Below are positions 25,254 to 51,353 of a DNA stretch of 64,000 bases, piece by piece. Each line of letters begins with the position of its first letter. Position 1 is the stretch's first letter. The notes under the pieces were generated by a model. The model worked only from the letters and a program-made list of their open reading frames with translations. It had not been told where the DNA came from and searched no databases. The position numbers and the translations under genes are program-made. The stretch comes from Chloroflexus aurantiacus J-10-fl. Lineage in GTDB: Bacteria > Chloroflexota > Chloroflexia > Chloroflexales > Chloroflexaceae. The stretch is from positions 1,054,001 to 1,118,000 of the forward strand of contig NC_010175.1 of NCBI RefSeq assembly GCF_000018865.1. Direction: 5' to 3'.

Positions 25254-25439
25254 GGGCACGGCCAGGACATCTCTGGTAGCCCGTGACACGACCGATACAT
25301 CATACCGGCCACTGTGTGACATGTGGGTAATGCATAGCGCTGGGGGCGGGAGTCATCGGCGCAGGCAGGTGGTGAGCGAGCCGGAGGCGCACGCTCCCAG
25401 CGTGTGCAGACACACCCCCACCCCAGCCCGCCCCCGCTG

Positions 25440-25760
25440 GGGGCGGGAGTTTGTCTCCTCCCAGTGGGGGGATCACCCTCCAATTCCTCCCCCAGCGGGG
25501 GAATCACCCTACAATTCCTCCCCCCAGCGGGGGAATCACCCTACAATTCCTCCCCCCAGCGGGGGAATCACCCTACAATTCCTCCCCCCAGCGGGGGAAT
25601 CACCCTACAATTCCTCCCCCAGCGGGGGAATTGCCTTTCCATTTCTCCCCCCACCGGGGGAATCACCCTACAATTCCTCCCCCAGCGGGGGAATTGCCTT
25701 TCCATTTCTCCCCCCACCGGGGGAATCACCCTACAATTCCTCCCCCCACCGGGGGGAGGT
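25440..25760. repeat. Palindromic minisatellite, about 10 units of 32-33 bp
   Basis: Each unit has a core such as CCCCCAGCGGGGG followed by AATCACCCTACAATTCCT. Units 6-9 alternate with a variant (AATTGCCTTTCCATTTCT, core CCCCCACCGGGGG), forming a doubled unit of about 65 bp that is repeated. No spacers and no repeat-spacer alternation, so it is not a CRISPR array. Confidence 0.9.
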
Positions 25761-47406: not shown

Positions 47407-49206
47407 TTAGCCATCCTCTTGTGAAACTTCACATGGTGCAGATGGCACACCTGTGATCGGCAAACGCACACTAAAGGTCGAACCACGGCCCGGTTCACTC
47501 GTGACCAGGATCGCGCCTCCCATCACCTGACACAAGCGCTGACAGATAGCCAGTCCCAGCCCGGTGCCACCGTAGCGTCTGGTTGGACCATTATCTACCT
47601 GCACAAATGGCTTGAACAGGTGCTGAAGCTGATCGGCAGCAATACCGATCCCCGTATCGCTCACATCAATCTGAATCTCAGCAGTGGTTGAACGGTAGCA
47701 GTGAACACGAATCTCACCCTGCCCGGTAAACTTACAGGCATTGCCAACCAGGTTCAACAACACCTGACGTAAACGTACCGGATCGGCCAACACCGGTGGC
47801 AGGTCTGGTTCCACAGTAACGGTGATAGTATTTTGCCCCTGCTTCGCCAGTCCCTGCAACGTCATCACAACCTCATTGATCAGCGTAGACATGTGAACTG
47901 GCTCTGGGTGAATCGTCACGGCATTCGCTTCCAGGCGCGCGTAATCAAGAATATCGTTAATCAGCGTCAACAAATGCCGTCCAGCCGTAATGATCCGGTC
48001 AAGGTCGGATGTCAGTGAATGCAGATCCCGATTCAACAAATCCTCGCGTAGAAACTCACTGTAGCCCAAAATAGCCGTCAGTGGTGTCCGCAATTCGTGA
48101 CTCATCATTGATAGGAAGGCACTTTTCGCTTGACTGGCCGCTTCAGCCGCCTCCTTCGCTTCTTGCAAAGCCTGTGCTGCCTGCTTGAAGAGGGTAATGT
48201 CGCGCAGCACAAAGATCCGCCCCGCCGGACTGCCATCGCGATCGCGCAACGTGGTACAACGTAAATCGTAGGTCGTCGTCCCCGTTTCACCGGTCTGTTG
48301 CACCTCAAACTGGCCTTCGTACCGATCACGGACCTGCTCAATCAGCCAGGGCGGTGCAACACGTGCCAACGACTTACCAAGAACATCTGTCGTTGCCGAC
48401 AAAATCGCCTGTGCTGCCGGATTCAGGTCAATGATCCGATCATGCATATCAAGCACGATAATCGCATCAGGCATCTGATCAACGATTCGCTCACGCGCCG
48501 CCGGCAAGAGGTCAAGTGCGCGGTAGCGCTGCATCGCAACGGTGAAAGCCAGCCCACCGAGCGCGAAAGCGACCGGCGTTGGGTCAACAAAGGGGATCGG
48601 ACTGAGTCCGGTTACGAAGAGCATACTCGCTGCCCAAGGGAGGAGTGCTCCAACCACCAGACTGATCGCCTGGGCGCGGTAGAGTGATTGACTGCGGATC
48701 GCCTGATTGATCATCAACACCGTACCGGCAAACACCATCGCATAGGCGCTCAGAACACTGGCGTACCACAGCGGCCCATGCGGCCCGGTCAGCACCCAAA
48801 GGCCACCGGCAGTATAGGTCAATTCCACCCGCGGCCACATCAACCGATGCCAGCCATTTGTCCAGGCACCGATCAAAAATCCGCTTTGGAGCAGGATCAA
48901 ACTGTACAGCACACTACGCGGCAACAGATGAGCGCGATCTGTGTAACACAGTGCAAACAATAGCCACAATAATGGCACGCTCACCACACTGATGTATTGA
49001 ATATTGCTCAGCAGCACCTTACCGGCAATAGTCGCATTCGACAATTCCAGGGCATGACACATCGACCACCAGATCGTGCTAAACATCAGGCCAAGAAAGA
49101 CCTTTGCCACCGGTAGTCGCCGATATGGCCAGGCCAGACGCATTGCCCCTAACGCCAGGAGCACCGCAGCAAGTGGCAAGAGGATGTAGGGTGTGAAATA
49201 CCACAT
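47407..49206 (-). CDS. 7TM-type sensor histidine kinase with PAS domain
   Basis: About 599 residues. Seven hydrophobic segments in the first 230 residues (histidine kinase N-terminal 7TM region), a PAS domain (RIVDQMPDAIIVLDMHDRIIDLNPAAQAIL), a short coiled coil, the HisKA H-box FLSMMSHELRTPLTAILGYSEFL, and HATPase motifs GNACKFT, DTGIGI and RRYGGTGLGLAICQRL. Phosphoryl transfer from this His would go to a regulator not encoded nearby, so it is an orphan kinase. ATG at 49,206 is used; a GTG two codons earlier is possible. The input is unknown; the 7TM class often senses small membrane-near ligands. Confidence 0.94.
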   Translation of the reverse strand: MWYFTPYILLPLAAVLLALGAMRLAWPYRRLPVAKVFLGLMFSTIWWSMCHALELSNATIAGKVLLSNIQYISVVSVPLLWLLFALCYTDRAHLLPRSVLYSLILLQSGFLIGAWTNGWHRLMWPRVELTYTAGGLWVLTGPHGPLWYASVLSAYAMVFAGTVLMINQAIRSQSLYRAQAISLVVGALLPWAASMLFVTGLSPIPFVDPTPVAFALGGLAFTVAMQRYRALDLLPAARERIVDQMPDAIIVLDMHDRIIDLNPAAQAILSATTDVLGKSLARVAPPWLIEQVRDRYEGQFEVQQTGETGTTTYDLRCTTLRDRDGSPAGRIFVLRDITLFKQAAQALQEAKEAAEAASQAKSAFLSMMSHELRTPLTAILGYSEFLREDLLNRDLHSLTSDLDRIITAGRHLLTLINDILDYARLEANAVTIHPEPVHMSTLINEVVMTLQGLAKQGQNTITVTVEPDLPPVLADPVRLRQVLLNLVGNACKFTGQGEIRVHCYRSTTAEIQIDVSDTGIGIAADQLQHLFKPFVQVDNGPTRRYGGTGLGLAICQRLCQVMGGAILVTSEPGRGSTFSVRLPITGVPSAPCEVSQEDG

Positions 49207-49274
49207 AAGCACAGGTGTTATCGCTGCGATTATTCGCGATCATAAACGCAATATACAGCATAGCATACCATGAC

Positions 49275-49324
49275 TTGCCAACCAATCAGAAACCCTGTAT
49301 AATAGACACCACTGATAAGTGGTG
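49275..49324 (+). promoter_or_regulatory. Promoter and operator of trmB-like gene
   Basis: TTGCCA (49,275-49,280), 17-nt spacer, TATAAT (49,298-49,303), then a perfect inverted repeat CACCACT-GATA-AGTGGTG (49,307-49,324) at the expected transcription start. Position suits negative autoregulation. Confidence 0.7.
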
Positions 49325-49342
49325 ACAATAAGATACAGATCA

Positions 49343-50155
49343 ATGGTTGATCGCATCCAGGAACAACTGATGGCGTTAGGTCTCAACCGCTACGAAGCGG
49401 CCACCTACCTGGCGCTCCTCGAACGCCGGAGCTACACCCCGGCGCAGGTAGCGGTGCGTGCCGGCATTCCTCGCCAGCGCATCTACGACGTACTGGCCGC
49501 ACTTTGTGCGCGTGGCCTCGCCATCGAACGTCACAGCGACGGTCAACGCCACTACGTCGCCATCGATCCGGCCATCGCCCTACCGGCCCTGATCGAGCAG
49601 CGTCGTCGGCAATTCGAGCACGAACAGGCTACACTGACCGAACACGTCCACACGCTCCTCACCACCCTGACACCTGCTTTTACGGCTGGTCATGAACAGA
49701 TCGATCCCCTCGATTATGTTGATGTCCTGCTCGACCGCCGGCTCGTTGTCGAGCGCGCCCTGGCCCTGGCGCAGAGTGCTGAACGCGAGATCAGCGTCTG
49801 TTTCAAGCTCCCGTTACTGGGTGACCGGGAAAGCAATTTCGCCGAGGTAGCCGAACCACTCCGTCGCGGTGTGCGCTATCGCGCACTCTACGAACGGTCA
49901 GCCCTGGCAAACCCTGACCTGCGAGCCTGGGTGACGCAGTTCGTTGAATGGGGGCAACAGGCGCGCATGGTCGAGACCCTGCCGCTCAAGGTGAATCTCT
50001 ACGACCGTCGCATCGCCTTACTCTCGCTCCAGGACCCCGTTACCGGTGCGCTGAGTCTCACCGCACTCTGCGTCACCCATCCCAACTTCAGCGTATTCCT
50101 GCAGGGTGCGTTCGAGCAACTCTGGAGTGATGCCGAACCGTTCCAGCCCACCTAG
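49343..50155 (+). CDS. TrmB-family transcriptional regulator
   Basis: 270 residues. The N-terminal winged helix (IQEQLMALGLNRYEAATYLALLERRSYTPAQVAVRAGIPRQRIYDVLAAL) is TrmB-like, followed by a coiled coil (LIEQRRRQFEHEQATLTEHVHTLL) and a C-terminal ligand-binding region with the PLD-like fold used in this family (DYVDVLLDRRLVVERALALAQSAEREISVCF). TrmB proteins are best known from archaea. It lies 100 bp before hppD in the same direction, so aromatic amino-acid breakdown may be its target (inference). ATG at 49,343 is used, because earlier in-frame starts fall inside the operator. Confidence 0.92.
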   Translation: MVDRIQEQLMALGLNRYEAATYLALLERRSYTPAQVAVRAGIPRQRIYDVLAALCARGLAIERHSDGQRHYVAIDPAIALPALIEQRRRQFEHEQATLTEHVHTLLTTLTPAFTAGHEQIDPLDYVDVLLDRRLVVERALALAQSAEREISVCFKLPLLGDRESNFAEVAEPLRRGVRYRALYERSALANPDLRAWVTQFVEWGQQARMVETLPLKVNLYDRRIALLSLQDPVTGALSLTALCVTHPNFSVFLQGAFEQLWSDAEPFQPT

Positions 50156-50174
50156 TGTTACACGCCACTGAGTG

Positions 50175-50241
50175 TGATGCGTCCACATTCAGGGCGTGTC
50201 GGGTAACCAAACTAATCCCAGGGTGGACGCATCACCCTGAA
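50175..50241 (+). promoter_or_regulatory. Interlocked inverted repeats in hppD leader
   Basis: A = TGATGCGTCCAC (50,175-50,186), B = TTCAGGG (50,188-50,194), A' = complement of A (50,223-50,234), B' = complement of B (50,235-50,241). B' ends just before the Shine-Dalgarno GGAGGT (50,245-50,250). Both pairs are perfect, in the order A-B-A'-B'. Confidence 0.6.
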
Positions 50242-50255
50242 CGTGGAGGTGCCGT

Positions 50256-51353
50256 ATGTGCTCCGCCGATCCGCTTGAGTTACTTGGCATTGATTATGTT
50301 GAGTTTTACGTCAGCAATGCCCGTCAGGCTGCCCATTTCTACCGCACCACACTCGGCCTGCGTCCGGTTGCCTACGCCGGTCTCGAAACCGGGGTGCGCG
50401 ACCGGGCCAGTTATGTGCTCGAACGCCGCAATGTCCGCTTCGTCCTGACCGCTCCCCTCCTGCCCGATCACCCGATTGCGCAGCACATTGCCCACCACGG
50501 CGATGGGGTGAAAGACATTGCCCTGCGCGTCCGTGATGCGGTGACTGCGTATGAAACAGCGGTTGCCCGTGGCGGGATTCCGGTGCAGGCGCCGACCGAA
50601 TATGTGGACGAACATGGCCGGATTATCAAGGCGACGATTGCCACCTATGGCGACACCGTCCACTCATTTATCGAGCGTGAAAACTACCAGGGAACATTCA
50701 TGCCCGGCTTCCAGCCGATCACTACACCACTACCGGTACCGGAAACCGGGATTGCCGCCATTGACCACATCGTCGGCAACGTGGAACTGGGGGCAATGAA
50801 TCGTTGGGTCAACTACTACCGTGATGTGCTCGGCTTCAGCCAGTTGGTACACTTCGACGATCACGACATCAGCACCGAGTACAGTGCCCTCATGTCGAAG
50901 GTGATGCAAAACGGTACCGGTCGGATCAAGTTCCCCATCAACGAACCGGCTGAGGGGCGCCGCAAGAGCCAGATCGAAGAGTTTCTTGAGTACTACGGCG
51001 GCCCCGGTGTTCAGCACATTGCCCTGGCAACCGGCGACATCTGTGCGACCGTTGATGCACTGCGCGCTGCCGGTATTCCGTTTATCCACGTACCCGACGC
51101 CTACTACGATGATCTCGAAGAGCGGGTTGGCAAAATCGACGAGAGCCGGCAGGCCCTCCAGGAGCGGGGGATTCTGGTTGACCGTGATGAAGAGGGGTAC
51201 CTGCTCCAAATCTTCAGTCAGCCACTCCAGGATCGGCCAACCCTCTTCATCGAGATTATCCAGCGCAAAGGCAGCCGGGGCTTCGGCAAGGGTAATTTCA
51301 AGGCGCTCTTCGAGGCCATTGAACGCGAACAGGCCCGGCGTGGCAATTTGTAG
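50256..51353 (+). CDS. hppD: 4-hydroxyphenylpyruvate dioxygenase
   Basis: 365-residue Fe(II) enzyme making homogentisate in tyrosine breakdown or toward plastoquinol/tocopherol-type quinones. Two vicinal-oxygen-chelate halves: the N-terminal one begins GIDYVEFYVSNARQAAHFYRTTLG, the C-terminal one carries the iron ligands His (AIDHIVGNVE), His (VQHIALATGD) and Glu (LFIEIIQR). The conserved tail GFGKGNFKALFEAIEREQ is intact. ATG with GGAGGT. No homogentisate dioxygenase is adjacent. It follows the TrmB regulator with interlocked repeats between. Confidence 0.96.
   Translation: MCSADPLELLGIDYVEFYVSNARQAAHFYRTTLGLRPVAYAGLETGVRDRASYVLERRNVRFVLTAPLLPDHPIAQHIAHHGDGVKDIALRVRDAVTAYETAVARGGIPVQAPTEYVDEHGRIIKATIATYGDTVHSFIERENYQGTFMPGFQPITTPLPVPETGIAAIDHIVGNVELGAMNRWVNYYRDVLGFSQLVHFDDHDISTEYSALMSKVMQNGTGRIKFPINEPAEGRRKSQIEEFLEYYGGPGVQHIALATGDICATVDALRAAGIPFIHVPDAYYDDLEERVGKIDESRQALQERGILVDRDEEGYLLQIFSQPLQDRPTLFIEIIQRKGSRGFGKGNFKALFEAIEREQARRGNL

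Follow-up and report, generated by a model that had tools for sequence, protein, structure and literature searches.

ColE1 RNAI/RNAII-type kissing complexes are formed by complementary 7-nt hairpin loops that pair between two separate RNAs. REP/BIME elements are inverted pairs of palindromic units that lie between genes and occur in many copies per genome. The guanidine-II (mini-ykkC) riboswitch, in the part of the published account drawn on here, is composed of two hairpins with a flexible linker between them, 7-40 nt long, and with loops that are proposed to kiss; these loops are tetraloops that bind guanidinium, and the riboswitch acts on the translation of the downstream gene (PMC7544219).

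The leader analysed here, which separates a trmB-like gene from hppD, can be compared with each of these systems. Its two hairpins likewise have complementary 7-nt loops, as in the ColE1 complexes, but both hairpins are found in one strand. It has the inverted pair of the REP/BIME elements, but it is a single copy and the stem of its first hairpin diverges between species. With the guanidine-II riboswitch, as far as it is described in that part of the account, the leader shares the two-hairpin layout, the linker, the loops proposed to kiss and the position before a gene. We propose, with a probability of about 0.6, that the trmB-hppD intercistronic region contains a structured kissing-hairpin RNA which acts post-transcriptionally on hppD in cis.

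Two hairpins between trmB and hppD

The window, which is the whole 64-kb stretch of DNA that was analysed, belongs to a genome of 5,258,541 bases in a single contig. A trmB-like regulator gene (49319..50155, + strand; PF01978 TrmB, 58 bits against a cut-off of 25.6) is followed on the same strand, after a gap of 100 nt, by hppD, the gene of 4-hydroxyphenylpyruvate dioxygenase (50256..51353, + strand; TIGR01263, 455 bits against a cut-off of 277). The hppD Shine-Dalgarno sequence is GGAGGTG (50245..50251, + strand), and the start codon lies at 50256. The genome carries hppD, but a search for the C-terminal family of homogentisate dioxygenase (PF04209) found nothing in it. The listed start of trmB is GTG 49319, and an alternative in-frame ATG is present at 49343; the latter is the likelier start because a palindrome, described below, overlaps the GTG. 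A search of positions 49200-50300 identified a sole promoter-like site on the + strand, TTGCCA-17-TATAAT (49275..49303, + strand; 11/12 consensus matches), which is that of trmB and is possibly shared with hppD, and none on this strand in the leader between the two genes. Since the only + strand promoter-like site precedes trmB, a single trmB-hppD message is likely.

The preliminary description had drawn the leader as two interlocked inverted repeats, A-B-A'-B', with arms of 12 and 7 bp. The sequence confirmed that the arms are present and perfect, including the 7-nt arms B (TTCAGGG, 50188-50194) and B' (CCCTGAA, 50235-50241), and that B' ends 3 nt ahead of GGAGG (50245-50249). The A arms also match perfectly, over 13 nt rather than the 12 that had been counted (A, GTGATGCGTCCAC, 50174-50186; A', GTGGACGCATCAC, 50223-50235). 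In the predicted fold, each A arm is the tip of a separate and longer local hairpin, H1 or H2, and the pairing that had been drawn from the repeats, with A-A' and B-B' stems, is probably wrong.

Hairpin H1 (50160..50199, + strand) starts 4 nt past the trmB stop codon and consists of 16 pairs and one bulged A (50167), distributed over an outer stem (50160-50166/50193-50199) and an inner stem (50168-50176/50184-50192). It was defined from the minimum free energy (MFE) fold, the pairing of the inner stem over three carrier genomes (G000, G006 and G004) and flank shuffles. Hairpin H2 (50219..50239, + strand) has a stem of 7 pairs (50219-50225/50233-50239) and was defined from the MFE fold of G000, pairing and flank shuffles; one MFE drew it with a 5-nt loop, and the modelled loop has 7 nt. 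A 19-nt linker, placed by alignment of the carriers (50200..50218, + strand), joins the two. Loop 1 (ATGCGTC, or AUGCGUC as RNA; 7 nt, 50177..50183, + strand) and loop 2 (GACGCAT, or GACGCAU as RNA; 7 nt, 50226..50232, + strand) are perfect complements of each other. At the tip of H1, the A arm has the sequence GTG-ATGCGTC-CAC, and the A' arm, at that of H2, is GTG-GACGCAT-CAC; the 13-nt match arises because GTG opens and CAC closes both tips, and because the 7-nt loops are complementary. In the fold models, this arrangement suggests that the loops of H1 and H2 form a kissing-loop fold, and H2, with the predicted compact stack, ends 5 nt upstream of GGAGG.

A nine-codon open reading frame, from ATG 50177 to TAA 50206, begins in loop 1 and is of equal length in G006 but not in G004. 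It was rejected as an upstream reading frame, as G004 is without an in-frame stop there and no good Shine-Dalgarno sequence was seen ahead of it.

A flank-shuffle control was performed in which the 9-nt loop core was kept and the 20 nt to either side of it were shuffled (mononucleotide, 2000 shuffles). Hairpins as stable as H1, which reaches -25.6 kcal/mol in G000 with the loop open, were obtained in 0/2000 shuffles for G000, 14/2000 for G006 and 52/2000 for G004. The corresponding values for H2 were 0/2000, 3/2000 and 45/2000, so that the stems of G004 are only moderately better than shuffled flanks. The fold of the 120-nt leader had a z of -3.13, with 2/200 shuffles equally good. When both strands of the window were scanned for neighbouring hairpins with a 7-nt loop-loop match, one other place was found, in G+C-rich repeats with loops at 25433 and 25490. 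The stretch 25393-25498 contains several G+C-rich hairpins close together, with loops (CCCGCTGGG and CCCCAGCG, for example) that match each other, and is probably a short repeat array. Twenty dinucleotide-shuffled windows, scanned on one strand, gave no 7-nt loop-loop matches and six of 6 nt.

Distribution and conservation among relatives

A HppD match was found in 42/61 genomes, including 8/8 of the genus, with some matches weak or partial, and the leaders of 30 hppD loci were compared. The loop-pair core pattern was present in 3/41 family genomes, namely G000, G004 and G006, all of which belong to the genus (3/8), and in 0/33 family genomes outside it. In each of the three carriers, the loop pair sits between trmB and hppD. 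Loop 2 starts at -30 from the hppD start codon in all three, and loop 1 at -79, -79 and -78 (G000, G006 and G004, the last value being corrected because the G004 start codon lies 9 nt ahead of the match). The GTGGAGGTG sequence at the hppD Shine-Dalgarno is invariant in 3/3 carriers of the alignment.

The remaining 5/8 genus members are without the loop pattern, and the element is therefore dispensable. The leader of G003 is short, that of G002 has no visible resemblance to the element, and in those of G001, G005 and G007 a distinct hairpin stands ahead of the Shine-Dalgarno sequence. This hairpin (TTGGCRCAGCGYTGYGCCAA; loci L013, L015 and L016 in G005, G007 and G001) itself displays paired changes. 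The hppD DNA tree did not separate the branching of G000, G004, G006, G003 and G002.

The search for further copies was extended beyond the genus. Within the source genome, the core pattern occurs at one place, and a separate search gave 10 other matches, all with E of 4 or more. A covariance model built from the three copies was run on 158 genomes of the class with stricter filters, which lose weak matches; 43/158 genomes gave a row at E up to 1, and scores above 90 bits were obtained only at the three known loci. Next in score came the G000 element read on its antisense strand (32.5 bits) and then G141 (28.1 bits, E 0.006), in which the loops are not complementary. Eight weaker loci were inspected residue by residue and taken as chance. 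A genome pattern scan for the two loop cores returned at least 119 stretches; among the matches listed, nine had at least 3 stem pairs beside each loop, two of which were the known genus loci L159 and L160, and the other seven were read as chance on account of their short stems (the largest 4 and 4, or 3 and 5). A kissing-loop finder applied to the 30 hppD leaders recovered the three carriers. Its other matches, of 7 nt at L012 (A/T-rich and located within the end of trmB), 5 nt at L013 and 6 nt at L030, were read as chance. As far as searched, the element appears to be restricted to part of one genus.

The hppD DNA identity among the three carriers is 79.0-80.7%, and 24/159 fourfold hppD sites are identical in all three, which indicates near-saturation of neutral sites. 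Of the aligned columns, those unchanged in all three carriers make up 14/14 of the loops (7/7 each), 11/14 of the H2 stem, 10/29 of the aligned linker and 5/18 of the H1 stem. The linker core CCAAA (50207-50211) is the same in all three carriers and could serve in docking or binding. In the inner stem of H1, 24/27 cells are paired over G000, G006 and G004, the three unpaired cells falling in G006 and G004 together, and 5/9 pairs are changed on both sides; with so few invariant columns, the pairing was mostly kept while the letters changed. H2 is paired in 21/21 cells. Both partners differ in 1/7 of its pairs, where G004 has C-G in place of A-T, and in one pair the change of a single partner gives U-G.

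For H1, H2 and the loop-loop helix together, 95.7% of cells are paired and six pairs have two-sided changes. None of 500 shuffles reached the cells paired, the two-sided changes or the covariation score of the whole structure and 21/500 reached its further pair types, in a control that ignores relatedness and that used a structure taken from one of the three rows. Slid registers paired 23-52% of cells. The loops are complementary over 7/7 nt in 3/3 carriers, and since these 7/7 loop-loop pairs never vary among the three sequences, they neither gain nor lose covariation support. Their invariance may reflect selection on more than pairing, which could be recognition by a protein or another RNA. 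From the sequence comparison, selection for the stems and loops of the hairpins is more certain than any function they would have.

The same comparison was applied to the stems of the preliminary description. The B-B' stem is not conserved across the carriers, with 66.7% of cells pairing and no two-sided changes. The A-A' stem showed no compensating two-sided changes in the leaders of relatives, and G004 breaks one of its pairs. An RNA with selected pairing is supported by the six two-sided pairs of the hairpin structure, and the proposal of A-A' and B-B' as two alternative stems is not.

Alternative readings of the leader

The A-A' duplex bears on the best surviving alternative, a conformational switch in which the kissing hairpins would interconvert with an extended A-A' duplex under a ligand, a protein or temperature. 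We consider this switch unlikely. Over 154-155 nt, folds with the loops held open gave -54.6, -61.2 and -51.7 kcal/mol (G000, G006 and G004), and folds with A-A' forced gave -46.9, -59.4 and -48.6 kcal/mol. The local hairpins are therefore favoured by 7.7, 1.8 and 3.1 kcal/mol, with the loop-loop energy not included; the 7-bp loop duplex alone amounts to -9.0 kcal/mol as free strands, which is an upper addition to the hairpin fold. Over ~130 nt, the values for hairpins versus A-A' were -50.7 vs -45.7 kcal/mol (G000), -52.1 vs -54.1 (G006) and -43.5 vs -39.7 (G004), so that in G000 the duplex is the weaker state in the shorter context also, by 5.0 kcal/mol. A switch is favoured by G006, the unconstrained folds of which prefer A-A' in 2/3 contexts: at 140 nt (MFE) and, by 2.0 kcal/mol, at ~130 nt, where the closing-pair probability of H1 is 0.06; at 154 nt, it is the local hairpins that are preferred. 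For G004, the MFE of unconstrained folding contains H1 without H2, and the probability of the H2 closing pair rises from 0.59 at 37 C to 0.89 at 55 C. Chloroflexus grows near 55 C, and models at this temperature kept H1 and H2 in G000 and mostly in G004, with G006 mainly in A-A'.

The 9-bp core of A-A' is conserved, which fits a switch, but necessarily so along with the loops, and the A-A' pairs beyond this core do not covary. In the fold models, no Shine-Dalgarno sequestration is conserved across the carriers, in either the kissing or the A-A' state, and there is thus no classical sequestration switch to point to. Temperature as the trigger was rejected as well, as the exposure of the Shine-Dalgarno in unconstrained folds hardly moves from 37 to 55 C (0.16 to 0.17 in G000, 0.41 to 0.42 in G006 and 0.38 to 0.45 in G004). 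No binding pocket for a ligand was recognised in the element.

The repeats can also be read as DNA, that is, as an operator made of two inverted copies of GATGCGTCC, ~49 bp apart from centre to centre, for TrmB or another regulator. Both copies are located upstream of hppD, and 9/9 bases per copy are conserved in the three carriers at near-constant spacing. However, the flanking H1 stem varies in sequence yet stays mostly paired, which argues against this reading as a DNA site needs no pairing, and no + strand promoter-like site was found in the leader. In common with operators of the TrmB family, a trmB-like gene lies directly upstream, but TrmB has a better candidate at its own promoter. This is the palindrome CACCACTGATAAGTGGTG (49307..49324, no strand assigned), located directly after the trmB -10 box and kept in relatives.

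The palindrome, either intact or as a variant in which one end base or the central bases differ, was present at 10/30 hppD loci, some of which are incomplete, and these include G001, G003, G005 and G007, all without the leader element. A genus scan located the exact palindrome once each in five genomes, upstream of hppD. With one mismatch, it was found in 7/8 genus genomes, G004 and G001 then showing a site at the trmB-hppD locus, at a level that also yields chance hits (rows elsewhere; 0 to 3 per genome in reversed-pattern controls). The leader core, present in only 3/8 genus genomes, is neither kept wherever trmB precedes hppD nor common to the trmB promoter. The promoter palindrome is, on this comparison, likely to be the TrmB site in preference to the leader, and the earlier suggestion that the leader repeats are TrmB operators found no support. 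The open-licence literature searched returned nothing on a TrmB operator in Chloroflexus. We consider a DNA operator in the leader, for TrmB or any other regulator, improbable.

A passive barrier or protector, with a part in mRNA decay, stabilisation of the trmB 3' end or insulation, would give the loop match no regulatory part. The placement of H1 immediately after the trmB stop codon and its strength in G000 are consistent with such a role, as are the different hairpins of G001, G005 and G007 and the short leader of G003. It leaves unexplained, however, why all loop columns are invariant when neutral sites are near saturation, and we consider it improbable. A chance coincidence or a dispersed repeat is very improbable, for although the inverted palindromic units have the layout of a REP/BIME-like pair, the element occurs at a single place in its own genome and is conserved at one locus in three lineages.

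Proposed role and comparison with known RNA elements

The kissing-hairpin RNA acting on hppD in cis is the reading we retain. Comparison of the three carriers supports the stems of the two hairpins, loops that are both complementary and invariant, and the constant placement of these parts. H1 and H2 would fold locally during transcription, and the complementary 7-nt loops would then pair as a kissing loop, giving a compact stack 5 nt before GGAGG. We infer that this loop pairing takes place in the cell, that both genes are carried on one message and that hppD is affected. The element would set the translation and/or the stability of the hppD part of the trmB-hppD message, and this control would not depend on TrmB, whose own site of action would be the trmB promoter.

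A further-reaching proposal is a new class of cis regulator, in which kissing hairpins with invariant 7-nt loops respond to a cell signal. A metabolite from the tyrosine/4-hydroxyphenylpyruvate route would serve as this signal, or else a protein or an sRNA reading the loop sequence. The element would form a second layer above TrmB and switch the translation of hppD by moving from the kissing fold to the extended A-A' duplex and back. We regard this as improbable, to the same degree as an operator in the leader.

An Rfam scan of the leader and its surroundings gave no family that reaches threshold. The sub-threshold rows (mir-639, IRES_mnt, sR43 and MH_s7; E 3.9 to 9.6) belong to unrelated families and are far from gathering scores, and RF01068, the guanidine-II riboswitch, was not among the rows at E up to 10. 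CsrA binding to the GGA motifs was discarded, as PF02599 has no match in the genome, and so was a T-box, to which AGGGTGG bears a resemblance, since there was no Rfam match and, in our judgement, no room for stem I. In the open-licence literature searched (mostly titles and the starts of abstracts, with partial coverage), no description of the leader element was found; by title, the papers on Chloroflexus hydroxyphenylpyruvate dioxygenase held nothing on this leader, and nothing relevant appeared for Chloroflexus aurantiacus transcription start sites. With no Rfam family and no further good copy in the 158 genomes of the class, the putative kissing-hairpin leader appears new as far as searched.

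The comparison with the raw repeats shows that an inverted repeat can be misread as a long-range stem. If the proposed reading is true, a compact kissing-hairpin leader from a thermophilic group would be added to the RNA elements with a proposed architecture of this kind. It would stand apart from the guanidine-II riboswitch: the Rfam match is absent, the modelled loops have 7 nt and complement each other throughout, and the gene concerned is hppD, whereas the loops of the riboswitch are tetraloops in the part of the account drawn on here. Compared with the guanidine-II riboswitch, the leader has a loop match of greater length and simplicity, which can therefore be easily tested by loop swapping.
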